From positions 1 to 64,000 of IMG/VR virus record IMGVR_UViG_3300012351_000008: a stretch of DNA of 64,000 nucleotides. One strand, 5' to 3'. Under the pieces are notes generated by a model. That model saw nothing but the letters and a program-made list of their open reading frames with translations, was not told the origin of the DNA and made no database searches. A program made the translations under genes and the position numbers. Below are positions 5,116 through 61,668 of the stretch, in pieces; within the stretch, counting starts at the first letter, position 1, and each line of letters starts with the position of its first letter. Origin of the DNA: a virus.

Positions 5116-5552
5116 TATTCATCCTCCTGAGAGTTGAGTATCTCATTCACTTTCTGGACATTTTCATCATCAGTGAGAAAGTTGCCGAGATGCCAACTGC
5201 GACGACGTATCTGCAGTGCTGTCATAGCAACTTGGAAGTTCTGTTCGTCCAGACTGGTCACGAAATCAACAGGAGAGGCCTGTGTGTATCCTGCGTTAAA
5301 CAAATTGCCTGCCAACTGAATGAGAGCAAGATAGCCACCAGACCAGTGCTCATTGGCTATTAGCTCATCAAACTTGATCCCATCGCGACCCACGTAACTC
5401 TTAGCTCGTTCCCACGTGCCACTATTGGAAGTCAAAATGTATAGTGCCGCCCCGTACTCCTCGTTAATGTGCCCTTCGTAGATTTTTCCGGTTTGTTGAA
5501 TGGCAACAAGGAAACGCTGTCTGTGATTCTCGGATTTGAAAATGATTTTCAT
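5115..5552 (-). CDS. DUF6075-like conserved protein, 145 aa
   Basis: MKIIFKSENHRQRFLVAIQQ at the start, then EEYGAALYILTS, GRDGIKFDELI, SGGYLALIQLAGNLFN, recalls a conserved family of plasmid- and phage-borne proteins annotated DUF6075. The match is from memory. No biochemical role is known to me. ATG 5552 overlaps the preceding stop as ATGA. Confidence 0.7.
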   Translation of the reverse strand: MKIIFKSENHRQRFLVAIQQTGKIYEGHINEEYGAALYILTSNSGTWERAKSYVGRDGIKFDELIANEHWSGGYLALIQLAGNLFNAGYTQASPVDFVTSLDEQNFQVAMTALQIRRRSWHLGNFLTDDENVQKVNEILNSQEDE

Positions 5553-5848
5553 TTGTGATCCTCGTACTGCTTGATAATGTGTTGCACCATCTTATGTACT
5601 CGCTCAATATCATCTGGTGTTGGTAACAATCCCTCGCGTTCGAGATAAGCGTGCTCTATCTCGCGCATCTTTGCAAAGAGTTCACTATCGTGTGCAGCCC
5701 GCTCTTCTAGCTCAATCGTCAGGTCAAGGTCGTGGTCATCCCACGGGTGTTTGTCGAAGAGTGCCTGATACAGTGCGATATCATTGGCTCTGCTCAGTTG
5801 TTCGCCACGTTGCGCGGCGGCGATGGCTTGCTCGAAAAAGTCTTTCAC
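5549..5848 (-). CDS. Unknown early protein, 99 aa
   Basis: Helical, strongly acidic protein (ERAAHDSELFAKMREIEHAY). ATGA overlaps on both sides. No family recognised. Confidence 0.65.
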   Translation of the reverse strand: MKDFFEQAIAAAQRGEQLSRANDIALYQALFDKHPWDDHDLDLTIELEERAAHDSELFAKMREIEHAYLEREGLLPTPDDIERVHKMVQHIIKQYEDHK

Positions 5849-6381
5849 AATATTTCCTCTTCATCCTCGGTGACTATGAGATCGTTTGCCTTGACCTCGA
5901 TTGTTCCCTTATCGGTGCGGCGTTCCCCTTGCCACTTCACGGAGCCATTCAGGGCATAGCCCCACGGGCTAAGAAAGTGCTGGATAAGAAATTGCAGCCA
6001 TTCTACGTAGTCGTAGAACTTCTCTGCTCCATTCCACTTAATGGCTGTCCCTTGCTCATTAGGTGCCCATTTGCACCATAAGCCAGGAACGCCAGCAGGA
6101 GTGGGGTTATAGTTAACCAGAGCAGGATGATAAGCTGGACGCCCATTGCAGCTATAGTGTGTGAGGCTGATACTGTAATCTGTAATCCCGGTAAAGTAGA
6201 TGCTGAATAAGCCTAATGGTAGTTCTGCTGCTTCGCGTATTGGATCGGGGATAGATGGTAACATGCTCTCATTCCACAGCATATGGCGCGTCTCCGCAAA
6301 ACGCTCAAGGTAGGCTTTGTGTCCTGGCGTTAGTGGTTTGTCTAAATCGAATTGTCCTTCAAATGTTGTCGTGTATCCCAT
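5845..6381 (-). CDS. Conserved phage/plasmid protein with GYTTTFEGQF start
   Basis: From ATG 6381 the 178-residue protein begins MGYTTTFEGQFDLDKPLTPG and contains GLWCKWAPNEQGTAIKWNG followed by EKFYDYVEWLQFLIQHFL. It belongs to a widely spread family of mobile-element proteins with no assigned function. The upstream open frame to 6453 is ignored because the family normally starts at this Met and it would overlap the previous gene. Confidence 0.75.
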   Translation of the reverse strand: MGYTTTFEGQFDLDKPLTPGHKAYLERFAETRHMLWNESMLPSIPDPIREAAELPLGLFSIYFTGITDYSISLTHYSCNGRPAYHPALVNYNPTPAGVPGLWCKWAPNEQGTAIKWNGAEKFYDYVEWLQFLIQHFLSPWGYALNGSVKWQGERRTDKGTIEVKANDLIVTEDEEEIL

Positions 6382-6398
6382 CGTTAACTTGCTTTCTG

Positions 6399-6908
6399 CT
6401 AGTGGTTGTAAATTGCCGGATTTTCGCAGTTCTTCAATGCCCACTTCACCCACCAGTCTAGCCAGACGAGTCTGGCTAGGATAGGGTCAAGTCCATTGCT
6501 AACGTAGTCATTGCCCCAATGGAATTCATCAAATCCAGGTTGCGCATCAGGGTGTCTTGCTTTCCATCGGTTGAGGGCCTGCTCAATAGCCAGAGCGTGT
6601 TCAACATGGAGTGCTGTATGTCCAGGGTGCTCACGCATAAGACCGGTTTCACGGTTGAAGAAGAGATCGCGGAGTCCCACCTCATCGCAGAACTCTCCCC
6701 ACTGGCTATAGCCGGGATGTCTGCCATTGCTGTTTTTCGTCATTTCATCGTTGGGGAATGTTGGCGCGTCCGGTTGGTGTATCTCTTTGACCATAGGATC
6801 GTAGTAACAAACTTTGCCATTGACGACGCGAGAGTAGCCTGTGGTGTACTCTTCGTCCTCTTCGATTGGCTCCATTTTGAGTTCGCCGATGTAGATTGAA
6901 TAACTCAT
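6399..6908 (-). CDS. Unknown early protein, 169 aa
   Basis: Soluble and Trp-rich at the C-terminus (ARLVWLDWWVKWALKNCEN). The central part (GHTALHVEHALAIEQALNRW) is helical with several His. No family recognised. ATG 6908 overlaps the preceding stop as ATGA. Confidence 0.65.
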   Translation of the reverse strand: MSYSIYIGELKMEPIEEDEEYTTGYSRVVNGKVCYYDPMVKEIHQPDAPTFPNDEMTKNSNGRHPGYSQWGEFCDEVGLRDLFFNRETGLMREHPGHTALHVEHALAIEQALNRWKARHPDAQPGFDEFHWGNDYVSNGLDPILARLVWLDWWVKWALKNCENPAIYNH

Positions 6909-7189
6909 GCTTGTGCCTCCTGAACTGTGGTTTGTTGCTTCTCTGCCATAATCGCGGCAATTTGACGATCAACCTTTTCCTGGTGCTTATCGTATCGGGC
7001 CTCAAGCAATGCCTGGTTCTCTGGTGTATCAGGGAGGACAGCATCAGATTTGCAAATGCTACGAACGCCTGTAGACCACTTGACGCGCACATACTCAGTA
7101 CTCTCGCGGGTCCAACTTTCAAGAACAAAGCCTTCGTAGATGCCATCACTGATGTTCTTCTTGAGCACTTTGTCAAATTCTGCGTACAT
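6905..7189 (-). CDS. Unknown early protein, 94 aa
   Basis: The first 50 residues look like a small beta-barrel (YEGFVLESWTRESTEYVRVK), followed by a charged helix (ALLEARYDKHQEKVDRQIAA). It starts at ATG 7189, 2 bases after the preceding stop. Function unknown. Confidence 0.65.
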   Translation of the reverse strand: MYAEFDKVLKKNISDGIYEGFVLESWTRESTEYVRVKWSTGVRSICKSDAVLPDTPENQALLEARYDKHQEKVDRQIAAIMAEKQQTTVQEAQA

Positions 7190-7191
7190 GA

Positions 7192-7398
7192 TTATTCCTC
7201 TCCCAGCATCTCCCTGATATCGAGGATGTCTCCCATCGCTTGTGTCAGATCCAGGTCTATTTTCTTGAGTGCCAAGTCCTTGTGTAGCGGCGAGAGTGTA
7301 TCTAAGGCACTCTGTACTGTAACCTCAAGATTGTAGATGAGATCACGTAGACGGTCTTCATCGATGCGACTTTGCTTCGTGGTTGCTTCAGCGTTCAT
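7192..7398 (-). CDS. Small helical protein, first gene after minus promoter
   Basis: A 68-residue, all-helical, Leu-rich acidic protein (DRLRDLIYNLEVTVQSALDT). It is the promoter-proximal gene of the leftward transcript from 7456-7485. Function unknown. Confidence 0.6.
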   Translation of the reverse strand: MNAEATTKQSRIDEDRLRDLIYNLEVTVQSALDTLSPLHKDLALKKIDLDLTQAMGDILDIREMLGEE

Positions 7399-7455
7399 AT
7401 CAGCCCTTTCTCATTATAATTCTTGTGTTCAATATCGTACAATCATATTGTCTAA

Positions 7456-7485
7456 ATTATAGATTATGGTACTACTGTATGTCAA
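7456..7485 (-). promoter_or_regulatory. Leftward sigma-70-type promoter
   Basis: On the minus strand TTGACA (7480-7485) is followed, after 18 bases, by a consensus TATAAT (7456-7461). It drives the genes from 7398 leftward. Confidence 0.75.
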
Positions 7486-7504
7486 GTGCTAACGTTTTAT
7501 CGGA

Positions 7505-7532
7505 TTGACGTGATATCATAATTGTGTATAAT
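7505..7532 (+). promoter_or_regulatory. Rightward promoter of the 7566 HTH gene
   Basis: TTGACG (7505-7510), 16-base spacer, TATAAT (7527-7532). It lies back to back with the leftward promoter, so the small HTH gene may regulate both. Confidence 0.7.
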
Positions 7533-7565
7533 TAAAGACAGAGTAATCAGCCTGAGGAGGGAATC

Positions 7566-7799
7566 ATGAACAAGCAGCAAGATACAATAACATCTCAAGA
7601 AGCAGCCGATATGTTGGGTGTTGAACTTGGCTATCTGTACTTTTTGAATAGAACAAACCAATTGTCGCCTATTCCGCAAAAAACAATAAAGCAAAAGCCA
7701 AGATTGAAATATCGCCGCTCTGATGTTCAGGCATTCTTGGAGAAACAAGAGCAAAAAGCCAAGGAGGATGACTTTCGACACCTCCAACCTGCCAGTTAA
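7566..7799 (+). CDS. Small excisionase-like HTH protein
   Basis: The 77-residue protein has TITSQEAADMLGVELGYLYFL followed by a basic wing (KPRLKYRRSDVQAFLEKQE), the HTH_17/excisionase layout. It stands alone as a plus-strand gene inside the leftward operon, with its own promoter and terminator and an SD (GAGGAGGGAATC). This suggests autonomous expression, perhaps as a regulator of the divergent leftward promoter. Excisionase is the alternative. Confidence 0.75.
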   Translation: MNKQQDTITSQEAADMLGVELGYLYFLNRTNQLSPIPQKTIKQKPRLKYRRSDVQAFLEKQEQKAKEDDFRHLQPAS

Positions 7800-7812
7800 A
7801 AATAAATGATAT

Positions 7813-7845
7813 GGGGCACGTTGCTCTGGTGCCCCGTTATATTTT
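7813..7845 (+). terminator. Rho-independent terminator
   Basis: GGGGCAC (7813-7819) pairs with GTGCCCC (7829-7835), followed by GTTATATTTT. It ends the 7566 gene. No gene is supported between here and 7934. Confidence 0.8.
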
Positions 7846-7934
7846 CCACACATACGATTCCCCAAATATACTTGTAAAGAGTAAGTTACTAAGTTTCGCA
7901 GTTGGTATAAACCCCGTAAAATCGGAGCCTTTTC

Positions 7935-8078
7935 TTACAAATCCTCATTCCAACACGAATACTCTCGCCACAATCCCGGCCAAAATACCAGCGGCCAGCC
8001 CAGCATCAGCAACACGATAGCCAGTGGTACGCTGCCCATGAGGCCGAGTGTGAAGAGTGCGCGATCTCTGCGGTTCAT
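7935..8078 (-). CDS. 47-aa single-pass membrane protein
   Basis: ATG 8078 lies in an ATGA overlap with the stop of the preceding gene. The peptide begins MNRRDRALF, has one hydrophobic segment from about residue 8 to 34 (PLAIVLLMLGWPLVFW), and ends YSCWNEDL. The positive N-terminus predicts N-in/C-out topology. It continues the run of small membrane proteins in this operon (8785, 9051, 9335). Function unknown. Confidence 0.6.
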   Translation of the reverse strand: MNRRDRALFTLGLMGSVPLAIVLLMLGWPLVFWPGLWREYSCWNEDL

Positions 8079-8350
8079 GATTGCTCCTGATATTCTGCGA
8101 GTGCATCAGTGACTCTTGATCGTAAGTCTGTTTCGTCTGTGTGTTCAATATGGGGCATGCACTCTCGCAAGAGACGCACGATCTTATCGTTCTCTTGTTG
8201 TGTGCGCTCAAAGCGGACAGCCCTCATCATAATCTGTGCCCACGGGAGATCGGCCCGGTCTTTGCGTTTGTGATAGAGATCGAGTAGTTCCGTGGTGGAT
8301 AGCTGAAATATGATGCTGTCGTTGACATTGTCTGCTGGCTGGTCTTTCAT
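8075..8350 (-). CDS. Unknown helical protein, 91 aa
   Basis: ATG 8350 has AGGAG 7 bases upstream and overlaps the preceding stop as ATGA; the longer frame is therefore rejected. It is a soluble, charged, helical protein (TTELLDLYHKRKDRADLPW). Function unknown. Confidence 0.65.
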   Translation of the reverse strand: MKDQPADNVNDSIIFQLSTTELLDLYHKRKDRADLPWAQIMMRAVRFERTQQENDKIVRLLRECMPHIEHTDETDLRSRVTDALAEYQEQS

Positions 8351-9338: not shown

Positions 9339-9523
9339 AGGGTTTGTTCCTGTTCCAATGGATCACTCGATGGGAAAATCTGTTGAATCTCTTCTTCCGT
9401 GACTCGTTCTCTCATTCTCCTGGTACGAGATCCCCAGGCATATCCAATGGTGCATCCAATGATGGTTATGACAATGGCTGCCAGGGCTGTCAACTCGTAG
9501 GCGGCAAATGCGGCGCTATTCAT
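9335..9523 (-). CDS. Single-pass membrane protein, 62 aa
   Basis: One transmembrane helix (LAAIVITIIGCTIGYAWG, residues about 14-31) is followed by an Arg-rich then acidic cytoplasmic tail. ATGA overlaps on both sides. Function unknown. Confidence 0.65.
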   Translation of the reverse strand: MNSAAFAAYELTALAAIVITIIGCTIGYAWGSRTRRMRERVTEEEIQQIFPSSDPLEQEQTL

Positions 9524-9735
9524 TTCAGTTCTCCTGTCAGGTAGTATCCCTCGCTATCTTCAGCAATGAGCCCTTTCGACAACATTTCATCGAGACGGGT
9601 TGCAACGCTCTCTCTGGTCGGGAAAAGAACAATGTCCCGGCTATCTGGGCCGATTGCATTGCTCCGAACCGTGGCGAACACATCGAATCTCCCATCTTTG
9701 TCCTGAAAGCCAATAATGAGGCTATGTTCGCTCAT
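9520..9735 (-). CDS. Unknown small protein, 71 aa
   Basis: From ATG 9735 the protein begins MSEHSLIIGFQDKDGRFDVF; the second half (VATRLDEMLSKGLIAEDSEG) resembles a winged-helix tail. It overlaps the previous gene by 14 bases. Function unknown. Confidence 0.6.
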   Translation of the reverse strand: MSEHSLIIGFQDKDGRFDVFATVRSNAIGPDSRDIVLFPTRESVATRLDEMLSKGLIAEDSEGYYLTGELK

Positions 9736-26763: not shown

Positions 26764-27612
26764 ATGAGACGGAGACAGAAACTCATTGTAGGCAGGAAAC
26801 AACCGCCTAAGAACACGCACGCCGTCAGAAACGAACAGCGTATTCAAGAGTTGCGAACCATGTCCTATCAGGAATACCTACAAACGCCAGAGTGGGCAGC
26901 CAAACGCCAGCAAATCTTAATACGAGATGAGCACCGATGCCGAGTGTGCAATGGCGGTGAGCAATTAAATGTGCACCATCGCACTTACGAGAGACGTGGA
27001 GACGAAGATTTAAACGACCTGACCACGTTATGCCAGCCCTGCCATGAGTACTTTCATAACCGAAAAGAGCAGGTATCACTTGAACAATTCATAGACCCAT
27101 TCAGACGTAACAGTTTTAGAACGTTCAATCCGCGCGTCCCCGGTGTGCAAGAAGCATTTCAGGAATGCGCTGAGTACGCCCGTGACCCGGACGGCTGGTT
27201 ACTCCTGGTAGGGCCATCCGGTTGTGGTAAAACACACTTAGCAACGGCTATAGCCAAGCAGTGCAAAGAAAGAGGAGCGAGTGTATTAAGTTATTCTGTC
27301 CCTGATCTCTTAGATTTCTTGCGCTCAACATCTACCTACTATGAAACATTCAAGCAGATAAAAGAGGTTGAAGTACTGGTATTAGACGACCTGGGAATGC
27401 AACAAGGTTCACCGTGGGTAACAGAAAAGCTTTTCCAACTTTTTAATCATCGTTACATTTCAGGTTTGCCAACGATTATTATAGCTAGCATTAAAGGATT
27501 GCAAGAACTTGACGAGCGTATTCGCTCCCGCCTCTCCGACAATAGCTTAGTAACGCCGATCATTTTCGAAGATACGCGTGATTATCGGCCCAATCACCCA
27601 CAGCGAGACTAA
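26764..27612 (+). CDS. HNH nuclease fused to DnaC/IstB-type AAA+ helicase loader
   Basis: 282 residues in one frame. A basic N-terminus leads to an HNH domain at about 36-100: CRVC (C59, C62), NVHHR (H71, H72), the Asn of DLNDL (N84), CQPCH (C90, C93, H94). The AAA+ domain follows at about 120-282: Walker A GPSGCGKT (150-157), Walker B VLVLDDLG (204-211), sensor region IIIASIK, and arginines in ERIRSRLSD (254, 256). DnaC-like proteins load the replicative helicase. Position right after the initiator supports the loader role; the fused HNH is unusual. Confidence 0.85.
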   Translation: MRRRQKLIVGRKQPPKNTHAVRNEQRIQELRTMSYQEYLQTPEWAAKRQQILIRDEHRCRVCNGGEQLNVHHRTYERRGDEDLNDLTTLCQPCHEYFHNRKEQVSLEQFIDPFRRNSFRTFNPRVPGVQEAFQECAEYARDPDGWLLLVGPSGCGKTHLATAIAKQCKERGASVLSYSVPDLLDFLRSTSTYYETFKQIKEVEVLVLDDLGMQQGSPWVTEKLFQLFNHRYISGLPTIIIASIKGLQELDERIRSRLSDNSLVTPIIFEDTRDYRPNHPQRD

Positions 27613-47886: not shown

Positions 47887-50589
47887 CTATCTAAACTTAG
47901 CAGTCAATACACCGTCACGATAGGTCGTTGCCGCAATGACGTTGTTACGGAAGGTTGCGAAGATGACACCGTCACGGAAAGTTGCCGTGACAACTCCACT
48001 GTGGAACAACGCAGATATAACGCCATCACGAAAGGTTGCTTGAAGGATAACTTGTGCAATGAATTGTGGTGGCAGTTCCGCAGTCTGGAATGTCTCAATA
48101 ATTGTGAGCAAATCAGTCCACCTGATTTGCTCTGCCGCCAGTAATTGATCAAGCGCGGTCTGCAGTTCTAGCGAAATGAAGGTGCTGATAATCCGCATAC
48201 CATCCGAGACGATGAGCACATCACTGGTAGATATGCCGCTAGATGACACTGAGAGGTCGCTGAGTATGGTTGTGTCGATAGGGAGGTATCTATCAGTAAG
48301 CAGGTCTGTATCACTCGCTACGAGCGGCTCAGTCGTACTCATTAACAGTGCATAGGATGCGGTATCAATGGCGATCAATCCATCAACCGGCCACCTTTGC
48401 ATATTGCTAAAATCGCTGGAGGTCAAGGTATCAGTTGGGAGCGTTTTGTCAATTGCCAGGATGGAATCAACTGTCGCAAGGCTCTCGGTTTGTATTGTGC
48501 CTGACACCATTACGTATGTATCCGTTACAGTTAGATTATCCACAAACGTCATCTGATTGTTGGTGACGCTCGTTATAACTTGTGTCCAGACGGCACTATC
48601 ACTTACACTGAGCGCATCAGTTGTATTGTATCCATCTATCTCCAGAGGCGTAGAGGTTGCTGTAAACCCATCAAAAAGGATACTTCCATCCGTGGAAAGT
48701 GAGGTATCGGCAATGGTCAGTGCATCAACCGGCCTGGCCGTGTCCATCGCAATAACACTATCCACAATGCTGCTTGGCTCTGTGAATAACCCACTTTCAA
48801 CACCCAAAACAACGTCTGCAACACTGTTGGCATCAGTGAATAACCCAACAGTTGTTGAGAGGATGTTCTCAGTGACAGAGAGCACATCGAGAGGAGTGGT
48901 ACGCTCTATGTAGAGCGTGGTGTCACTCACTGTAAGAAGATCAATTCCCCATGCTTGCAGGTTCCCAAGATCAGTAATGGTCAGTGTATCAGCAACACCT
49001 GCGCCATCTGTTATGAGCACAGTATCAGTAACAGCAAGTCCATCAGTCGGAATGGCTACCTGAATAACGCTAAGGGCGTCGGTAACAACAAGGTCATCTT
49101 CAAACGTCATCAGATTCGTGTTGACGCCTAGACTGACCTGTGTCCAGACCGCGCTATCACTGATGAGATTCACTTCATTTTGTACGATTGGGAAATCAAT
49201 CGTACCAGCAAAAGCACGCATCACCCAGTTTTGTGTCGGTGGGAGATTGCTCAGGATAAGCGTGTAGAATGGGCTATCGGCATTTGTGAGCGCTTCAGCC
49301 CGTATCGTTGTATCGGTTATCAGCGCCGCATCTACAACACTGTTACTATCAATCAGCACCGTGCTATCAGTAAACAGTGCCGTCTCTGTACCAGTAAGCG
49401 CATCAAGCGAGAGGGCCATTGAGATGGCAAACAATGTATCAACACCTGAGAGTGCGTCTATGGATAGGGCAACCGTTGTGTTGAATACTGTGTCTGTAAG
49501 AGTGAGTGTGTCAATAAATAGGGCTACATTTATTGTGAGGGGCGTGCTATCAGAGGCTACAAGCGCGTCCACCAGCGATGCACTATCACTAGCCAGTGTG
49601 GTATCTATAGCGGTTAACGCATCAACAGGAATGACATTATCAGCAACAAGTACCGTATCGGCAATGGTCAGTGCATCAACCGGCCATGCTTGTATCTCTC
49701 CTCTATCAGTAATTGTATTGGCATCAATTGACAGTGCCGTATCAGTTTGCAGAAGTGTATCGCCAACAGCAAGAGTCTCTATACTCAGGTAAGTCGTTGT
49801 CTGGACCAGCGTATCAGTAGCACTTAAACCATTATCCTGCGGCCAGTTCAGTACGTTCTCAAAATCCTGTACATATATTCCTGCAGCGTAGTGTGTAGCA
49901 ACCTGAGTACTGTTGAGTGCTTTGCGATACACAACAGCTTCATTGATGTTCCCTGTAAAAGTGTCATTGACTGTGAATGGATAGGTTGCTGGTGTTGGGT
50001 TGCTGGTGATCGCTTGCGATGTTGAAAGCACACCATCAACATAAAATAAAATTGAAGCACCGTCAAAGACACCAACAAGGTGATGCCATTTATTAACGGC
50101 AAGTGAGTTATCATACCCAAAGGCATAGGTGGAAGAGTTACTTAATTGTGCAATTAAGAAGAGTGCCGAATTCGTTGGGGCAGTCGTCAAATACATCCAG
50201 CACTCGACACTCCAGACGGGCCAGCCAGTAGGATCGAGAGTAATCGGAGAAGTTACTTCTCCCCCAGAGGAAAACCCTATAGAAGTTTCGCTGCTACTAG
50301 CAATGGCTCCAGGTTGATTATAGGAAATCCCTGAAGAGCTATAAGAAGCATTTTGGCTATTGAGGCTAGAATCAATAGCAACTAAACCAGAAGATTCATT
50401 CAGACGGTAATAGGCAGCAGGCACGTCTGAGAGAATCGTTGCCGCATAATTTGCCAGTGCATCCTGAAAAATCATCCGGTTGTTTACAGGATAATCGAGT
50501 GTAGCCGCAAAAGAGCGAATATCCCAATGCCCTGCTAAAAGGTCTGTATCAATTGTACCAGCGAAGGCGCGTTCAATCCATGTTGGCAT
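47887..50589 (-). CDS. LamG-containing fibre protein with long SIDALT-type repeats, 900 aa
   Basis: Residues about 60-235 form a LamG jelly roll (VWSVECWMYLTTAPTNSALF; WHHLVGVFDGASILFYVDG). Residues about 255-820 are dozens of 17-20-residue repeats with core D(A/T)L-x-x-x-DT, probably a fibre shaft. The C-terminus has five nine-residue repeats (TFRDGVISA, LFHSGVVTA, TFRDGVIFA ...). It should be a receptor-binding or side-fibre protein. Antisense open frames at 48.5-49.8 kb are shadows of these repeats. Confidence 0.75.
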   Translation of the reverse strand: MPTWIERAFAGTIDTDLLAGHWDIRSFAATLDYPVNNRMIFQDALANYAATILSDVPAAYYRLNESSGLVAIDSSLNSQNASYSSSGISYNQPGAIASSSETSIGFSSGGEVTSPITLDPTGWPVWSVECWMYLTTAPTNSALFLIAQLSNSSTYAFGYDNSLAVNKWHHLVGVFDGASILFYVDGVLSTSQAITSNPTPATYPFTVNDTFTGNINEAVVYRKALNSTQVATHYAAGIYVQDFENVLNWPQDNGLSATDTLVQTTTYLSIETLAVGDTLLQTDTALSIDANTITDRGEIQAWPVDALTIADTVLVADNVIPVDALTAIDTTLASDSASLVDALVASDSTPLTINVALFIDTLTLTDTVFNTTVALSIDALSGVDTLFAISMALSLDALTGTETALFTDSTVLIDSNSVVDAALITDTTIRAEALTNADSPFYTLILSNLPPTQNWVMRAFAGTIDFPIVQNEVNLISDSAVWTQVSLGVNTNLMTFEDDLVVTDALSVIQVAIPTDGLAVTDTVLITDGAGVADTLTITDLGNLQAWGIDLLTVSDTTLYIERTTPLDVLSVTENILSTTVGLFTDANSVADVVLGVESGLFTEPSSIVDSVIAMDTARPVDALTIADTSLSTDGSILFDGFTATSTPLEIDGYNTTDALSVSDSAVWTQVITSVTNNQMTFVDNLTVTDTYVMVSGTIQTESLATVDSILAIDKTLPTDTLTSSDFSNMQRWPVDGLIAIDTASYALLMSTTEPLVASDTDLLTDRYLPIDTTILSDLSVSSSGISTSDVLIVSDGMRIISTFISLELQTALDQLLAAEQIRWTDLLTIIETFQTAELPPQFIAQVILQATFRDGVISALFHSGVVTATFRDGVIFATFRNNVIAATTYRDGVLTAKFR

Positions 50590-51171: not shown

Positions 51172-52500
51172 CTATTCTTCTGTGAATTCCATATACACAT
51201 CGATAGAGCCTCCGGTTACCAATGCGCTTGCAACAACAGCAAAGTACTGCGTTGTGCCTCTTAGGATAGGAGCCTGCGCCGGGCGAATACCAAAATCCCA
51301 GGTAACAGGATTTCCCGCAACTGTCGTTAAATTGCAGCAGAGCTTTCCTGTTCGCACCGTACCTACGACTGTTCCTGTGGTTGGAGCAACGGTATAGATG
51401 GAAGCCACAGCCGTACCAGCCGCATTTGTACTGTCGTGTGGTGTGATAACAGGCGCAGTCCCCGTTGTTCCTGCTGACGGTGCGGAGGACCATTTCACCA
51501 GAGAAATATCTATCGTCACTGCCGTTGTGCCAATACCACTCACATCGCACTTTGTTAGGCGGATAGTTTTCGTAGAGCTTCCTTGCAAAACAAACAAGGC
51601 ACCAGCCGTAGTGGCCTGCACAATAGGTACTGAAGAAGCACTATACGTTGGTTTCGCACCATCGTTAGAAGGAGTAACCTGAGCACTTCCCCCAATCGTG
51701 ACTGTTTGCTGTCTCCATGGGTATGTGGCATCTGAAACCTGAAAACTGTTTTTAGCGGTGTCTGCTAAAGTGACGGTATTCACCTGAAGGACACCGCTAC
51801 TACCAGGACCAGTGGAACCAGCAATAGCGGTGAATTTTATTGGGAGTATGTTGACATCCGGGCCTGGAGCACCTGTAGTTGTTTGAGCGACCACATTATC
51901 GTTTCCGTCAATAGCCCAAATAATGTTATCACCCTTATAGTACATATAGTACTTATGCGTGTTGGAGTCTGTAGGCTGTTTATTATTGCCACTAGATGAA
52001 AGGTCTTGAACAACCACGCGAGTACCTGATTGATACGTAATCGCAAACAGCTTGCCAGCCGTGGTCACTTCGAAGCCTGCCGCATTGGTTAATGGGGCTG
52101 CTGCTGTTGGTGATCCAGGGGATGTTCCAAGGCCCCAAAAGAAATATTGATTGGCGACGACCGGATACGTAATATTAATACCTGTGTAGAACATTAACCA
52201 ACCAGGGTTGACCGGGGCAAACGTTGCAACACTTTCCAGGTAAGAATAACCATTAGCTGTTGTACCAGTGCCAAGCGTCGTATTCGTTAATGCATTAGAG
52301 GCTGCGACTCCACCGCCTGAAGCTGTTGGTGATTTCCAGCGGTTTGTTACATCTAAGGTAGAGGTATCGAACCCATCCTGGAATAACTGCGTTGGTTCCA
52401 GAGCAGCCCGGATATATCCCGGCGCAAAAATAGAAACCGGGTACGTATTTGTTGAATCGATAATATTGACCGATGGTGGTGTCTGTGATGGAACTGGCAT
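51172..52500 (-). CDS. Virion protein paralogous to 58532-59866, 442 aa
   Basis: Residues about 28-265 (LEPTQLFQDGFDTSTLDVTN ... GAPGPDVNILPIKFTAIAG) match the other gene almost residue for residue and look like a LamG/concanavalin-type sandwich. The C-terminal 170 residues differ. One copy sits beside fibres, the other beside the capsid, so they may be decoration or fibre proteins binding sugars. Confidence 0.7.
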   Translation of the reverse strand: MPVPSQTPPSVNIIDSTNTYPVSIFAPGYIRAALEPTQLFQDGFDTSTLDVTNRWKSPTASGGGVAASNALTNTTLGTGTTANGYSYLESVATFAPVNPGWLMFYTGINITYPVVANQYFFWGLGTSPGSPTAAAPLTNAAGFEVTTAGKLFAITYQSGTRVVVQDLSSSGNNKQPTDSNTHKYYMYYKGDNIIWAIDGNDNVVAQTTTGAPGPDVNILPIKFTAIAGSTGPGSSGVLQVNTVTLADTAKNSFQVSDATYPWRQQTVTIGGSAQVTPSNDGAKPTYSASSVPIVQATTAGALFVLQGSSTKTIRLTKCDVSGIGTTAVTIDISLVKWSSAPSAGTTGTAPVITPHDSTNAAGTAVASIYTVAPTTGTVVGTVRTGKLCCNLTTVAGNPVTWDFGIRPAQAPILRGTTQYFAVVASALVTGGSIDVYMEFTEE

Positions 52501-52513
52501 ATTTCCTCCCTAT

Positions 52514-54163
52514 CTATGCATGATACCACTTAGATACACTACTATCCCATTTAAAGAACATACATCTATTAGCAGCAATCACTGCTGATACACCATCAGC
52601 CACGTTACTTGTGCCAACAACTGCAAACGTAACAGTAAAAGCGCTTTCGTTCGTAACAACGCATTCCTGACCTACTATCGTTCCAGCTTGCATAATTACT
52701 CCAGTAACATTGCCGGTCGGTGCAACGCGTGCCTCTCCTATATTCGCAGTTGTTATGGTGCCAGCAGTGGCAATGGCTGCCGCACTCGCGCTTTGTCCAG
52801 TAGCCAGAACACCACTTGATGTGATATTTCCTGTACTGGCATCAAGATTATATTTAAGAGTCGACCCATTATCAGAGTAGCCGCTAAACGCGAAGCCGTT
52901 CTTGAGTTGGAACACGGAATCATAGGTATCAAGGGAAAAAAGGACAGACCCGGAATTATTGATAACTTGTAGACCATAGAAGCTCCCATTGCCAATTTGG
53001 AAAAATCCACCCTTGCCCGGTGTTCCGTCAGAAGTGACCCCATTCATTTTGAGGTATCCGCTCGAACCTCCTACTGGATAACCGCTATTGCTAAAAATGC
53101 CTGTCCCGGCAGTTTGATAGGCATTTATCTCGTAGACATTCCCTGTAGTATTTCTTTCGTCAAGTACACCTGTATTGCAGCTAAACGATTTCCCTGAGAT
53201 ATTGCAGATATTAGCTGTAGCAGCAGTTGTTACCCCTGCCGATTGGAATGTTTGACTCGTGTACGGAGTTTGCCCTGCGGCCTGCCCAAATTGAATACCA
53301 CGTCCTTGTCGAGTTGCGTCTCCAGTACTTCCAACTTCAAGATTTACTGCCTGGCAATCATTTGCCAGGAGTACAAGGGCACACGTATCGGACCCTTCAA
53401 TCTGGCAGCTTGTGAGAATAAGTTCAGATGATTCATTGAGCAAAGTTACCGCGCTGACACCAGTTGGCGTTGCCCAGAAGTGACAGTGGCTCATTCTCAG
53501 TGCAATACAGTTCGGGGCAATATGCACAACATGCGAACCGCTTGCGAAACCAGAGACAGCATCCCACTGCATGTCGGTTGGACCACCTATTTCGATAGCC
53601 ATTCCGTTACAGTCATGAGACATAACATCATACCAATGTGGCATAAAAGCGTTATTTGGTGCAGTTGGGTTCGCACTTGCATACCAATCTAACAAGATAT
53701 TTCCACTGTATCCACTGCGTATCTCAACATGCTCAAAGATATGCCCATACCCGTAACAGCGTATAGGATAACTTGGTCCCGCTGTCTGGTTGGCTTTATT
53801 GCCATCCAGCGTCAGATCACGAAATCCCCAATAATTTGTACCCGTTGAAGAACCAGCCCCGTTTACCCCTGCAAGATTGATGTTTGCTGTGTTTGCACTG
53901 AAAAGGTCGGCATTTGCTCCGTTTTTTAATTTAATGGTAGTGACACCTTCTCCTGCACCTACATATTGCACATTGGCTTTTATTGCCTGGTTCGTACTAA
54001 TGTAAGTACCCGGAGGAAAGAAGAGTATACCCCCTGCTACCGCAACAGCCGTATTCGCCGCAGCAATGGCTGTGGTATCATCTGTTGAACCGTCACCAAG
54101 AGCACCGTAGTCCTTCACATTGGTGAAAAAACTATTCTTTTGTTGAAATAACCATACAGGCAT
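52514..54163 (-). CDS. Tailspike with pectate-lyase-3 beta-helix, 549 aa
   Basis: The N-terminus NVKDYGALGDGSTDDTTAIA is the signature of Pfam Pectate_lyase_3, followed by a right-handed beta-helix (GGILFFPPGTYIS; VGAGEGVTTIKLKNGANADL). The C-terminal 100 residues are a Thr/Ala trimerisation-like domain. It should degrade or bind host surface polysaccharide. Confidence 0.85.
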   Translation of the reverse strand: MPVWLFQQKNSFFTNVKDYGALGDGSTDDTTAIAAANTAVAVAGGILFFPPGTYISTNQAIKANVQYVGAGEGVTTIKLKNGANADLFSANTANINLAGVNGAGSSTGTNYWGFRDLTLDGNKANQTAGPSYPIRCYGYGHIFEHVEIRSGYSGNILLDWYASANPTAPNNAFMPHWYDVMSHDCNGMAIEIGGPTDMQWDAVSGFASGSHVVHIAPNCIALRMSHCHFWATPTGVSAVTLLNESSELILTSCQIEGSDTCALVLLANDCQAVNLEVGSTGDATRQGRGIQFGQAAGQTPYTSQTFQSAGVTTAATANICNISGKSFSCNTGVLDERNTTGNVYEINAYQTAGTGIFSNSGYPVGGSSGYLKMNGVTSDGTPGKGGFFQIGNGSFYGLQVINNSGSVLFSLDTYDSVFQLKNGFAFSGYSDNGSTLKYNLDASTGNITSSGVLATGQSASAAAIATAGTITTANIGEARVAPTGNVTGVIMQAGTIVGQECVVTNESAFTVTFAVVGTSNVADGVSAVIAANRCMFFKWDSSVSKWYHA

Positions 54164-54713: not shown

Positions 54714-54742
54714 TTGCTTGTAGAGCCGTTTTGTGGTATACT
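54714..54742 (+). promoter_or_regulatory. Promoter of the homing endonuclease
   Basis: TTGCTT (54714-54719), 17 bases, TATACT (54737-54742) with extended TGG. Gives the plus-strand endonuclease its own transcription against the late operon. Confidence 0.65.
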
Positions 54743-54819: not shown

Positions 54820-56157
54820 GTGACTACTATACTCGATTCTACCAGTGAACAACAACCCCGGAGCGACTTTTACACATACATGTTGCGCAGACCCGCTGGC
54901 CCTGATACCCCTCCTGAGATAATCTTTCCCGATGGCACTGTTCCCTTTTATATTGGAAAGGGGCATGGAAGACGTATTAAAGGTCATGAAATGTGTGCTC
55001 AAAAGAGAGAAGACTGCCGACACATTTCTTGTAGAGTTATTCGTAAAGTTTGGCGTGAAGATGGTGAAATAGTTTCTGATAAGATGGAAGAACATCTTAC
55101 AGAAGTAGAAGCATTTAAGCAAGAAAAAAGCTGGATTGCATATGGACGTAAAATTGGATGGCCCTTGAGAAACCTGACTGATGGTGGAGAAGGTACCTCT
55201 GGATATAAGACTGCCCCTGCTCAGATTGAAAGACACCGACAACAGATGAAAGAACTGTTTTCTGCGTCTGAGAGGGTTGAAAATCAACGCCAAATAATGT
55301 TGCAATATTGGGAGGAACATCCAGAGATACGTGAACAATACCGCATCAAATGCGCTGATCCTGTTGCGCGTGCTAAACTCGGAGAACCCAACATTGGCAA
55401 CGCATACAACGCTAAATCTTATGAAGGTTTTATGAATCCTCTGGGAGAGGTCTTCATAGGCATTTTTAATCTTGCTCAATTTGCCAGAGAACATAACCTT
55501 GACAGGGTTCATTTGGGTGAAGTAGATCAGGGAACCCGCATTTCTCACAAAGGCTGGACACGCTACCCACCGTTGGAACGAGAGGAGAAACCACCGACTT
55601 ATGCAAAATCGGGATTCAAGTCCCCTGATGGAACTATCTATGAGGCTGAAGTCGTTCCAAACCTTACTAGCTTTTGTGCGCAGCATGGACTGGAAAGAAG
55701 GTGTATGGGACAACTTGGGAAGGGCGAACTTCATTCCTACAAAGGCTGGACACGTCACCCAGAGATCAAGCCAGAAAGAGATTATCATAACACCTATACA
55801 GGCCCATCTTTGATAAGCCCTGAAGGTGTTATCTATACCCCTGAAATGATTGATAATCTGACTCAATTTTCTCTCACTCATAGTTTGCAAACGAGCAATA
55901 TGTCATTAGTTGCTCAAGGTAAACAAGTTGCACACAAAGGCTGGACACGCTACCCACCGCTTGAAAAGCCATCTAAGTATATTCCTGTCAAATCTCCTAA
56001 TGGAACGATCTATACCATTGATAATATGTCCGAATTTTGCCGCCAACACGGACTTCATAGTAGTGCTATGTCAGCAGTAAATCTTGGCAAACTACCATCT
56101 TATAAGGGATGGACTAGGTGTGATCCTGATGTTACTCAGCCGCCCCTGTTTGAATAG
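54820..56157 (+). CDS. GIY-YIG homing endonuclease with four NUMOD-like repeats
   Basis: 445 residues from GTG 54820 (GGAG 7 bases upstream). GIY-YIG domain at about 16-110: FYTYMLRR, PFYIGKGHGRR (Y44, G46, R51), H56, and an acidic helix EAFKQEKSW for the metal Glu. Four modules of about 60 residues follow, each with (S)P-x-G-x-I/V-Y/F, a helix with L/F-x-x-F, and ending KGWTR at 244, 308, 374 and 429, like NUMOD DNA-binding repeats. It is the only plus-strand gene in the late region and ends 30 bases from exon 2 of the intron-split gene. Confidence 0.88.
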   Translation: MTTILDSTSEQQPRSDFYTYMLRRPAGPDTPPEIIFPDGTVPFYIGKGHGRRIKGHEMCAQKREDCRHISCRVIRKVWREDGEIVSDKMEEHLTEVEAFKQEKSWIAYGRKIGWPLRNLTDGGEGTSGYKTAPAQIERHRQQMKELFSASERVENQRQIMLQYWEEHPEIREQYRIKCADPVARAKLGEPNIGNAYNAKSYEGFMNPLGEVFIGIFNLAQFAREHNLDRVHLGEVDQGTRISHKGWTRYPPLEREEKPPTYAKSGFKSPDGTIYEAEVVPNLTSFCAQHGLERRCMGQLGKGELHSYKGWTRHPEIKPERDYHNTYTGPSLISPEGVIYTPEMIDNLTQFSLTHSLQTSNMSLVAQGKQVAHKGWTRYPPLEKPSKYIPVKSPNGTIYTIDNMSEFCRQHGLHSSAMSAVNLGKLPSYKGWTRCDPDVTQPPLFE

Positions 56158-56187: not shown

Positions 56188-57348
56188 CTACAATTTAATT
56201 GTGACTGAAACTGAAATATTGTTACTATTGTTGCAAATCATGGATGTGTTCACCTCATGTGCCACAAAATTACCTACAAAGTTACCTGTTGTCGTATTTG
56301 TGGCACCAGACGCCACATTCGTAATCCACGCATCGGTGTAGCTCAATACATTTGTTACTCACTCCTAAGAGTGGGGCTAATCGTTTCTGTTCCGTTAGCC
56401 TCTCTGGTTTCTTTGTTAGGTCATTTCCCAGAGTTCAGACTGTATCTTGGCTTTCGCCCCTGCATTCAGTCGTTCGCGGGTTTGGTGCTACTCTTCATTT
56501 GAGCAATCTTCCTGAACCAAACTTCCGTCGGGATTATCTGCCTCCAGACTTTCCCCGATATAGCAAGTGTTTCATGCTAGCTCATGTTATGCGACCAGCA
56601 AGCGGCAGCTATGTTTACCGTTTGTTGCGGAACCTCCATTTGTTGCATTGGCAAATGTAAATGAAATTACAAGTGAACGGTTGCCTGCACCTGTAGTGGC
56701 AGTATAAACGAACGCGCCTGCTGAAAGGTTGCCACTATACGACTCAACCGGCGTAGTTGCATTCACCTTCAAGTTACCGTTAGTTGGGTTTTCACCAACA
56801 TTCGGCAGTGGTACAACGTTCGTGCCAATGGCATATGCAGCATTGCTTGTGTATGAAACAGTAGTTAATGCTGTTGCAGCTTGTGATGCTGATGCATTCA
56901 TGCTGACAACTTGAGTCTGAGCTGTCCCGTATCCTACTGTTAGCTGTGTTACCGTACTTGAAATTGGGGCCGGGTAGTCCAAAGAGATAGCTGCTGGAAT
57001 AGCTGCTACTGCCAGAGAAATCACACTTGTCTGCCCGTTCGTAAGTGCAGTTGTGAGTGTTGTGCTCCCTGAATTGTTGTTGATGTACAGGTTGTTCCAC
57101 TGGCTAGAGTTGGAAGCGGCAGCAATGGCAGAGGCAAGGATATTGATTGCGCCCTTGTCAGTTATTACGTTTTTGGTTATTTCGCGCTTCCTGATCTCGC
57201 CTGTTTTCGGGTCCCACTGCTTCCACTCCCAAATACCGGTAGGTGCTCCGTGTGTCTCTACCATGTCACACAGTTCAGTGAAACCGCGAGGCCGTACTGA
57301 TGTGCAACGCCAGTACTCAGGGATATTGATAAGCTCTTGAGTTGGCAT
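56188..57348 (-). CDS. Virion structural protein split by a group I intron
   Basis: Exon 1 is 56617-57348 (TTG 57351 is an alternative start) and exon 2 is 56188-56343; splicing joins ...ATNG to SYTDAWITNV. Spliced length is about 295 residues. The N-terminal 75 residues (IWEWKQWDPKTGEIRKREIT) resemble phage proteins that bind the head-tail region; the remainder is beta-rich, ending SVSVTIKL. Without splicing the frame stops 8 codons into the intron. It lies among connector and fibre genes, so it is a virion component of unknown exact role. Confidence 0.85.
56344..56616 (-). ncRNA. Group I self-splicing intron, 273 nt, no internal ORF
   Basis: Minus-strand core: P4 UCGGG/CCCGA, P6 GUUUGGU/ACCAAAC, P7 GACUG/CAGUC, P8 GGC-GAAA-GCC; R-like ACGACTGAATGC (56462-56473), S-like AAGATACAGTC (56438-56448). 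P1: exon CAAACGGU with intron GCCGCUUG, one mismatch and the required U.G at the splice site. P10: UAGCU just 5' of that guide pairs with exon 2 AGCUA. The intron ends in G. P9-type stems CUCUGG/CCAGAG and GGCUAA/UUAGCC follow S. Confidence 0.92.
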
Positions 57349-58531: not shown

Positions 58532-59866
58532 TCATGTGAGCATGCTAGCGCCAACAGAATATGTACAGCTATTTGCGTTGTTTGCAACAACCTTGACGCG
58601 CCATGTATGCGACAACACATCGGACGCAACCGAGTTAGCAGCGGCGGTCAGCCCGGGATACACCACATAGACATTCGTGCTATTGGTGATCACTGCTGCC
58701 CCAGTCAATTGAGCAACATACTTGCCTGACGCCACATCTTTCGCGTCAATTTCTAGCGTTACTGAACCTGTGCCAACAACAGTCATATCCAACACGACAC
58801 GCACACCGCGCCCACTGGTATTGATCTGGTCAACGGTGGTTTGTGTCGTGGTAAAGGCTGCCGAGGGGATAAGCACAAGATCATTGCCACCACTCACTTT
58901 CACCTGAAGGTTTCCACCTGCATCAACCGTTGCCTGCCGCCACGGATACGTCCCGTCTGAAATCTGAATGTTGTTTCCACCAGTATCAGCCAAGTTAACG
59001 GTATTGACTGTCAACACGCCACTACTCACGGGAGCCACAGCCCCGGCTATGGCGGTAAACTTGATCGGAAGGATGTTCACATCAGGACCGGGCGCACCGG
59101 TCAAGGTTGAGCCTACAACATTGTCAATTCCATCAATACACCAGTAGATGTTATCGCCTTTGTAGTAGATGAAATACTTGTGAACACTGCTATCCTGGGG
59201 TTGCTTACCACTTCCGGTAGCGGCAGAGAGGTCTTGTACTGCCACCCTTGTCCCTGACTGATAGGTGACACACATCATCTTGCCGGTAACACCGACCTCG
59301 AATCCACAGGCATTCGTGAGAGGAGCCGCCGCCGTAGGGCTGCCTGGACTGGTGCCCATTCCCCAGAAGAAGTACTGATTGGCGACGATAGGCCAAACGA
59401 TGTTAACACCCGTATAGAACAGCAGCCAGCCAGGGTTAGCTGGCGGGAATGATACCGCACTTTCCAGATACGAGTAGCCTGAAATGGTTGTTCCCGTACC
59501 CAATTGCGTGTTTGTTAAAGTATTACTGGCAGCTACTCCACCTCCCGCAGCTACAGGGGCAAGCCATTTATTGGTGATGTCCAAAGTTGCCGTATCAAAG
59601 CCATCCTGGAAGAGTTGCGATGGCTCCAATGCCACGCGCAACTCACCAGCCGCCATGATACTTGCACTTGCACTTCCGGTAGCCGTTCCAGTAATGGTGG
59701 TTTGTGTAATCATGGGTGCCGACTTCTGCCCACTAGCACCCGCCGTATTGTCGGCAACAGGCGTACCCAATTGAACCGGGAGTACGCCCGCACCGGGTGC
59801 CCACCCGGTAGCGCCTGCACGAGCACCCGCACTATCAGTCGGTGTTGGACCGGATGAAAGTGTCAT
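58532..59866 (-). CDS. Virion protein paralogous to 51172-52500, 444 aa
   Basis: Residues about 75-310 (LEPSQLFQDGFDTATLDITN ... DVNILPIKFTAIAGAVAP) match the other copy. It has a distinct Gly/Ala-rich N-terminus and a beta-rich C-terminus (VEIDAKDVASGKYVAQLTG-like). Directly after the capsid gene, so a head decoration protein is likely. Confidence 0.7.
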   Translation of the reverse strand: MTLSSGPTPTDSAGARAGATGWAPGAGVLPVQLGTPVADNTAGASGQKSAPMITQTTITGTATGSASASIMAAGELRVALEPSQLFQDGFDTATLDITNKWLAPVAAGGGVAASNTLTNTQLGTGTTISGYSYLESAVSFPPANPGWLLFYTGVNIVWPIVANQYFFWGMGTSPGSPTAAAPLTNACGFEVGVTGKMMCVTYQSGTRVAVQDLSAATGSGKQPQDSSVHKYFIYYKGDNIYWCIDGIDNVVGSTLTGAPGPDVNILPIKFTAIAGAVAPVSSGVLTVNTVNLADTGGNNIQISDGTYPWRQATVDAGGNLQVKVSGGNDLVLIPSAAFTTTQTTVDQINTSGRGVRVVLDMTVVGTGSVTLEIDAKDVASGKYVAQLTGAAVITNSTNVYVVYPGLTAAANSVASDVLSHTWRVKVVANNANSCTYSVGASMLT

Positions 59867-59910: not shown

Positions 59911-61668
59911 CTAGTTAAGACTTATTCCAGTGATTAAACTCCATCCACCTAAAAACTGGTTGATGAGCGTAATGTTGATGTAAGCAGCGTATCCCCACTG
60001 CGTCCAGTGAGACTGGTCAGGCGGGTATTCTACAGCGAACATCTCACGATTGACACCAACGCGGAATGGAGGCTTGTCAATGGCGGATACAGGGAAGGGG
60101 ATGGTAAAGGAGCCGATCATGATTGTGCCTTGCATCAGGTAGGGCAGCATAATCACATCAATCACTTTGCCTGTGGTCTGATTGATGTATTTGGTCACGC
60201 GCTGGCCTGCTGTCAACTGGGACATGCCATCACCGATCTGCTGAGTGACGCGGAAGTTCGTACCTGCTGCCACAAGATTAGAGAGCTTTTTGTGATCCTT
60301 GATGCTAACAAACATGTACTCGGGATCAGCGTGGGCACTGAGGTACATATTTTCCAGGACAGTATCAATATCAGCAAGGGCAAGTGCGCCATTGGTCGCC
60401 GATGGCATCGCAATAATTGGCGTTTCACCAGCGATACCGAGTGAGCCGGGAGTGCCATAGGTGTTGTAGATGAGGGCCTGCGCGCCATCAATAGTCAATG
60501 GCATGTTCAACGTGTTGGCATCAGTGGACTTGACCACAATAGCCGTGTTGGTAGCCGTGACCACTGTAGAATAAGCCGTACCAGAAGTAAGGGCCGCAGC
60601 CAGTCCAAGGGTAACGGTGAAGTAGCCTTGTCGGATAGTGTTGGCAGGCTGGTTCAGTGTGTTCGCGGAGCCACCAATGAACTGGGTTGCACTACCCTGG
60701 AGCCACATGGCAGAGTTAGCTGGCTGTGTTGCACCAATGCCTGCGTACACCTGATACTTCGTAGCCGATGGTACACAGTTGATATTCATCGTGATGGTAC
60801 TGGTCGAGCCTGTGGTCACAATGGACGTGGCAACTGCTGTTGCACCACCAAAGGCCAGTGTTTCACCGTTTGCATTGAGCGCTGTCACAAGAATCCAGTA
60901 CGTACCAGCGGTTAACAATCCGCCAGTGGTGGCAGTAGTAAGACCGCCTACTGGAGGTGGGGACCATAACCGCTGTCCTGAGTTAATGAGCCAGAACTCT
61001 TCCTCTTGCATCAGGGCCGGGATAAGTTTAGCCGCAACGGTTGCGCGCACATCCCCCTGCCACATTTTGCCGTAGATCTCACTCTCGAACGATACCACGT
61101 CACGGTATGCAAGCAACTTGGCGACGTTGGACAGGCTAGCGAACTGATAGGAAAGCGCCGATGGTGTGCCAAACTGCTGTACAGCGGCACCTGCGACGGT
61201 TGGACCTGTACCACCGAAGTAGTCCAATACTGTACGCCAGTTGATGGTATCAATGCCGGGCATTGGGTCACGTGGCGTCATGTTGAGTAGCGGGGTCATC
61301 TGTGGAATGACAAACTTGGCGGCAGGCTCTAAGTAGTAGCCCGTGAAGTTGGCATTGTTGCCAGCAAAGGTACCATCACGAGTGATTTCACCACCTTGCA
61401 ATGCATCAATGGTTTCCTTGTTGAAGTTCGTAATGCCCTGGTAGGTATTTGTTCTGACTCGTTCAATGATGTCAGGCGAGAAGTTCGCACCCTCCTGATA
61501 CGTTTGTGCTCCACTCATGCGTTGCGCGGCGAAGCGTTCGGCTTGAGCCGCGAGCACGTCACGATCAGCGACCATGCCTTCCTCAATCACACCTACCGGG
61601 TCTTTGGTGTTGCCTGATGCGATTCGCGCCCCTTCCGGTAACGAATCCTTTGGTACAGTGATAGCCAT
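59911..61668 (-). CDS. HK97-fold major capsid protein with inserted Ig-like domain, 585 aa
   Basis: Core segments: N-terminal arm (AERFAAQRMSGAQTYQEGAN), YYLEPAAKFVIPQMTPLLNM, E-loop region PMPGIDTINWRTVLDYFGGT, A-domain ALADIDTVLENMYLSAHADP then YMFVSIKDHKKLSNLV. Residues about 230-355 (LLTAGTYWILVTALNANGET ...) are a fibronectin/Ig-like insert, absent from simple HK97 capsids and probably exposed. Gene order protease-capsid supports it. Confidence 0.85.
   Translation of the reverse strand: MAITVPKDSLPEGARIASGNTKDPVGVIEEGMVADRDVLAAQAERFAAQRMSGAQTYQEGANFSPDIIERVRTNTYQGITNFNKETIDALQGGEITRDGTFAGNNANFTGYYLEPAAKFVIPQMTPLLNMTPRDPMPGIDTINWRTVLDYFGGTGPTVAGAAVQQFGTPSALSYQFASLSNVAKLLAYRDVVSFESEIYGKMWQGDVRATVAAKLIPALMQEEEFWLINSGQRLWSPPPVGGLTTATTGGLLTAGTYWILVTALNANGETLAFGGATAVATSIVTTGSTSTITMNINCVPSATKYQVYAGIGATQPANSAMWLQGSATQFIGGSANTLNQPANTIRQGYFTVTLGLAAALTSGTAYSTVVTATNTAIVVKSTDANTLNMPLTIDGAQALIYNTYGTPGSLGIAGETPIIAMPSATNGALALADIDTVLENMYLSAHADPEYMFVSIKDHKKLSNLVAAGTNFRVTQQIGDGMSQLTAGQRVTKYINQTTGKVIDVIMLPYLMQGTIMIGSFTIPFPVSAIDKPPFRVGVNREMFAVEYPPDQSHWTQWGYAAYINITLINQFLGGWSLITGISLN

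Follow-up and report, generated by a model that had tools for sequence, protein, structure and literature searches.

An ORF-less group I intron in a probable phage structural gene, with a GIY-YIG nuclease-like gene beside it

The window analysed here, 64,000 bases out of a 79,961-base virus record, contains a gene that is very probably interrupted by a self-splicing group I intron of 273 nucleotides. The 273-base segment almost certainly removes itself from the message, as judged from its sequence and from comparison with relatives: the insertion is exact, the fold is accompanied by covariation, intronless alleles and sister introns exist, and in three lineages a nuclease gene is adjacent. The transcript would fold into a standard ribozyme with helices P1 to P10. 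A guanosine bound in P7 would attack on the 3′ side of the U that forms the U.G pair of P1 (position 56617), the freed exon 1 would then attack after the omega-G (56344), and the exons would join in frame to encode a protein of 295 amino acids. The intron belongs to a small family whose members are found in several structural genes of related phages. It may have been spread, or may be maintained, through homing with the help of a free-standing GIY-YIG gene 30 bp downstream.

The interrupted gene lies on the minus strand. Exon 1 (57348-56617) comprises 244 codons, ends with ATNG and has U as its last base; it is homologous to sequences in eight intronless contigs. Exon 2 (56343-56188) provides 51 codons (SYTDAWITNV...SVSVTIKL, followed by the stop) that are colinear with the intronless homologues. 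The 273 nt between them (56616-56344, last base G) contain no ORF and are missing from the intronless alleles. An earlier note on this DNA had placed the intron at precisely these coordinates, which are exact to the base, and had predicted a joined frame in phase 0; joining 56617 to 56343 indeed leaves the frame open across the junction and yields the 295 aa translation. In an unspliced message, translation would run into a stop codon some ten codons past the 5′ splice site.

When viral contigs were searched with exon 1, two intronless homologues emerged (L001 and L002), and an alignment search added six (L068, L069, L070, L071, L073 and L074). Since L069 and L070 are near-duplicates, the eight contigs were counted as seven lineages. 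In all eight, one ORF runs through the position of the junction without a gap or an added residue, and the residues G, Y and T around it are invariant. Intronless homologues failing to join at ATNG/SYTD would, according to the earlier note, have refuted the intron; every one of these contigs joins there.

Related introns were found in four further contigs. The neighbouring nuclease gene, used as a query, led to L064, a contig from another metagenome than the window, in which the same gene is cut at the identical codon boundary by a 237-nt intron (5355-5591, minus strand). Two more came from pattern searches: L065 has its intron in the major capsid gene (9506-9734, minus strand), and the joined capsid protein aligns with those of the window and of L002 unbroken through the junction, while L023 has its intron at the beginning of a tape-measure-like ORF of 1076 aa, with the end of an HNH nuclease ORF just 5′ of the 5′ splice site. 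The patterns were partly derived from the window intron, so that they are biased in favour of the P7-P8 stretch and not of the other helices. In the fifth family member, L086, the intron is situated in yet another gene, and an HNH gene follows downstream. A strict P7 pattern search for intron cores found nothing, and the looser core pattern that yielded L023 matched 57 contigs, mostly with other subtypes. Two matches of a P4-based pattern in bacterial genomes lacked intron context and were judged by eye to be chance. Comparison of the introns with isolated phage genomes gave only short, weak matches. One viral contig, L021, carries a pair of group I-like matches (5230-5350 and 6287-6419, minus strand) that lie roughly 1 kb from each other.

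Hand reading of the minus strand revealed a P7 with a bulged base, a P8 with a GAAA loop, the J8/7 segment AAGAUA and the omega-G. The 3′ strand of P1 is the internal guide sequence GCCGCUU (56600-56606), which is paired with CAAACGGU of the exon (56617-56624); six of the seven positions are paired, one is mismatched, and a U.G pair is found at the splice site. This U.G is present in all four introns (window, L064, L065 and L023), with exon 1 ending in U and the guide sequence starting with G. The 5′ side of P10, UAGCU (56607-56611), pairs with AGCUA of exon 2 (56339-56343). P2 is a hairpin (GCUGG...CUAGC, 56576-56599) that has five to nine pairs in the four introns. P4 and P5 (UCGGGG/UCCCGA and GUCUG/CAGAU, 56528-56558) show compensatory changes in L064 and L065, and P5 also in L023. 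P6 and P6a (CGG/CCG and GUUUGGU/ACCAAAC, 56477-56527) are followed by P7-P3′-P8-P7′ (A(c)GACUG...GCAGG GGC GAAA GCC AAGAUA CAGUCU, 56437-56473) and by the hairpins P9, P9.1 and P9.2 (56360-56433). The putative guanosine-binding G-C opens the GACUG/CAGUC helix after the bulge and is G-C in all four introns. The P3-P9 core contains the P3/P7 pseudoknot and the P4-P6 domain. P3 and P9.2 are likewise paired in all four, and the P3 of L086 consists of other bases (UCGGC/GCCGA). No P7.1/P7.2 extension was seen between P7 and P3.

The fold of the intron RNA is better than that of shuffled sequence (z about -3). A descriptor of P3, P4, P7 and P8 matched twice on both strands of the 64 kb, and with J8/7 fixed as AAGATA it matched only the intron. 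Altogether, 115 of 119 comparable helix positions in the sisters are paired, 36 of them by a two-sided change relative to the window, in an alignment of the four introns that leans towards structure because it was fitted by eye to structure. These 36 compensatory changes are spread over P4, P5, P6, P7, P8, P9 and P9.1. The P7 of L064 and L065 reads GAUCG/CGAUC, for L064 a two-pair compensatory change from the GACUG/CAGUC of the window; P8 is altered in all three sisters, and P9 (in L023) and P9.1 (in L064 and L023) have been swapped for other complementary sequences. P10 follows the exon: the four introns form 5, 6, 5 and 4 Watson-Crick pairs with their own 3′ exons (chance values 0.016, 0.007, 0.016 and 0.069), and the own-exon assignment is the best of 24, scoring 20 as against at most 16 for the other permutations. 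The U.G pair, the UAGCU/AGCUA pairing and the exon-matched P10 of the sisters agree with the previous proposal that P1 and P10 fix both splice sites.

A stricter test than the hand alignment is a covariance model trained on L023, L064 and L065 alone, with the window excluded and with P4, P5 and P7 to P9 as pairs. At E values up to 10, it matches the window only at 56402-56567 on the minus strand (84.4 bits, E 4.9e-24), which is the catalytic core from P3 to P9, and the intronless genomes gave no match. Model R1 also picks up L086, at 71.9 bits. Together with the P1-P10 fold and its covariation, the held-out match bears out the original reading of group I elements within the 273 bases. Rfam, by comparison, detected no group I intron in the window at gathering or permissive thresholds, and the group I model RF00028 was absent up to E=10; nor did it detect the sisters L023, L064 and L065 up to E 1. 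It matches L086 at 45.6 bits (E 1e-8), just below the cut-off of 50, and L029, which model R1 found as well, at 72.6 bits. The architecture of the window intron is the same as that of RF00028, and the Rfam miss is a detection failure. The covariance search that the earlier note had suggested is thus negative with Rfam RF00028 and positive with the held-out sister model.

The missing Rfam match is what would be expected if there were no intron at all and the segment were an insertion or an assembly error between two separate genes. This explanation is hardly credible: the intronless homologues span both parts as one ORF, L064, an independent contig from another metagenome, carries a homologous segment inserted at exactly this point, and the held-out model finds the window intron. 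On these three grounds it was ruled out.

Another possibility is that the intron is degenerate and no longer splices, which would leave a split gene with exon 2 as a dead remnant. The mismatch in P1 could be taken as a sign of decay, but the core helices are all intact, P10 is matched to its exon, and the omega-G and the U.G are in place. In both alleles that carry the intron (window and L064), exon 2 has remained open and colinear. Furthermore, between exon 2 of L064 and that of intronless L071 there are 14 silent and 6 amino acid-changing codons, a ratio unlike that expected of a dead remnant; exon 2 therefore appears to be still under purifying selection and expressed. The junction-spanning homologues, the held-out model and these codon changes led us to reject a degenerate intron, which we regard as very improbable, and to retain the self-splicing one.

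The protein encoded by the exons matched nothing in Pfam, PHROG or PDB, and no homologues were found in isolated phage genomes. An AlphaFold model of an intronless homologue was poor (pLDDT 40). The gene is located in a cluster of head genes, with genes for a maturation protease, a capsid protein and a head-tail adaptor, and its homologue in L002 is also close to a capsid gene. From this position it likely encodes a virion protein, as had been proposed; the label derives from the location near the major capsid gene, no family or structure match having been found for the product of the exons. The major capsid protein gene itself (59911-61668, minus strand) matches phrog_13692, a family without a named function, and we infer its capsid role from its position and the upstream maturation protease. 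Its homologue in L065 is the one that carries the sister intron.

Several other genes of the window were noted. Two minus-strand ORFs of the structural region (51172-52500 and 58532-59866) are paralogues with 61% identity over 340 aa and without a Pfam match. A pectate-lyase-type tail spike is encoded at 52514-54163 (minus strand), and a similar ORF is found near the related intron of L023 (9395-10954). The 900-aa protein encoded at 47887-50589 (minus strand) contains many DALTxxDT-like repeats and a laminin-G-like domain; repeat proteins of this kind are also present in L001, L002 and L064. At 26764-27612 (plus strand) an HNH domain is fused to an IstB/DnaC-like AAA+ ATPase, which is an unusual pairing.

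Downstream of exon 2, on the plus strand and convergent with the interrupted gene, lies a GIY-YIG homing-endonuclease-like gene, which the earlier note did not mention. It ends 30 bases from the exon 2 stop (54820-56157 from the putative start; the ORF opens at 54733), matches Pfam PF22945 (E 1.1e-6) as well as PHROG homing/HNH endonuclease families, and encodes repeated C-terminal HKGWTR modules. L064 has a 58-60% identical GIY-YIG gene at the same place. The number of HKGWTR modules differs between the two nucleases, as if DNA-binding modules had been gained or lost. A GIY-YIG gene of about 36% identity (~6901-8163, minus strand) is also found in L069/L070, beside a gene copy without the intron. 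In L001, L002, L068, L071 and L073 no such gene is present at the locus, and the L074 contig ends before the site. Thus, both intron-bearing lineages and one of six scorable intronless lineages have the nuclease (approximately P=0.11, by hand), numbers that are too small to prove an association.

An ORF-less intron next to a free-standing nuclease gene is the arrangement of collaborative homing, which has been described for F-CphI and psbA (PMC6083498; review PMC3984707), and the locus resembles that case. On this evidence, the chances that the nuclease drives the mobility of the intron are about even. Slightly less than an even chance can be given to the view that the GIY-YIG gene is unrelated to the intron and targets its own intergenic site, with the intron spreading through vertical descent, by general recombination or by occasional reverse splicing. 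Such independence would explain why L069/L070 have the nuclease without the intron and why the L065 intron has no nuclease gene within its contig. The genome also holds other free-standing nuclease genes, among them at least three HNH genes, so that the adjacency could be due to chance. An unrelated gene would not readily account for its recurrence close to the insertion site, with place and orientation unchanged, in three lineages and for its absence there from five intronless ones, nor for the HNH genes that lie close to the introns of the family members L023 and L086. With nuclease-assisted homing, the arrangement in F-CphI/psbA of cyanophage S-PM2 is a close parallel: there, too, the gene that carries a group I intron has a free-standing nuclease gene as its neighbour (PMC6083498). 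However, the motif of F-CphI is of the Endo VII type and its cutting of the allele without the intron has been proved (PMC6083498), whereas the window gene encodes a predicted nuclease of the GIY-YIG type, and the host gene is psbA in the cyanophage and a head-cluster gene in the window.

The introns of L064 and L065, which share neither the gene, nor the phage, nor the source metagenome, agree at 131 of the 132 positions aligned in the core (P3-P9), with one 4-base indel besides. Their ends (P1-P2 and P9.1-P9.2) match at only 65 of 92 positions (core versus ends, Fisher P = 5e-11), and each P10 is fitted to its own exon. The difference between core and ends is absent from the pairs window-L064 (P = 0.87) and window-L023 (P = 1.0). 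Near-identical cores with diverged ends are not predicted by simple descent or by a recent jump of the whole intron, but would be by a core exchange between introns already in residence. They raise the possibility, which we consider rather unlikely and, being based on one pair, offer as a lead, of an intron lineage in phage structural genes that evolves by swapping catalytic cores between non-homologous sites. If true, each resident intron would retain the ends specific to its site, while recombination exchanged the ribozyme cores.

Introns in phage structural genes have been described previously. Cluster J mycobacteriophages contain spliced introns in the major capsid gene (LittleE) and in a minor tail gene (BAKA and Optimus), in a report that also cites the lactococcal phage Tuc2009 (PMC3706429). 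As at the window junction, intronless relatives join exactly; one of these introns is short (265 bp, compared with 273 nt here), and a 156-bp segment is 98% identical between the capsid and the tail gene introns, similar to the cores of L064 and L065 (PMC3706429). The Cluster J phages are different phages, the LittleE capsid intron has its own nuclease ORF whereas the window intron is ORF-less, and splicing was proved there by RT-PCR and protein sequencing (PMC3706429), while for the window intron it is predicted from sequence. Twort orf142, which encodes the tail tube protein, is likewise a structural gene with group I intron(s), but in a different phage group and with reported exon skipping (PMC11878797). 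The Jug phages are similar to the window in having short introns (~206 nt) and many stand-alone nucleases in the same genomes; they differ in being huge gut phages with introns in terL, nrdD and DNA polymerase (PMC12363816). The claim that an intron in a virion gene is uncommon agrees with a 2025 survey (PMC11878797) and does not hold in an absolute sense, given Cluster J and Twort orf142. With these precedents the window intron is a further case of a kind already described, and the added interest is that related introns are found in several structural genes.

The majority of phage group I introns described so far lie in genes of nucleotide and DNA metabolism, and why they are otherwise limited to such genes was raised as an open question in the 2025 survey (PMC11878797). 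The introns in the major capsid gene, in its neighbour and in a tape-measure-like gene are a counter-example to a pattern restricted to DNA metabolism, and a timing role in DNA replication cannot explain everything. Because the sister set was missed by Rfam, the number of introns of this kind is probably underestimated, with their host genes mis-annotated as truncated. With a pair of introns at the same site, intronless alleles, and the nuclease gene present both with and without the intron, collaborative homing becomes directly testable in these phages.
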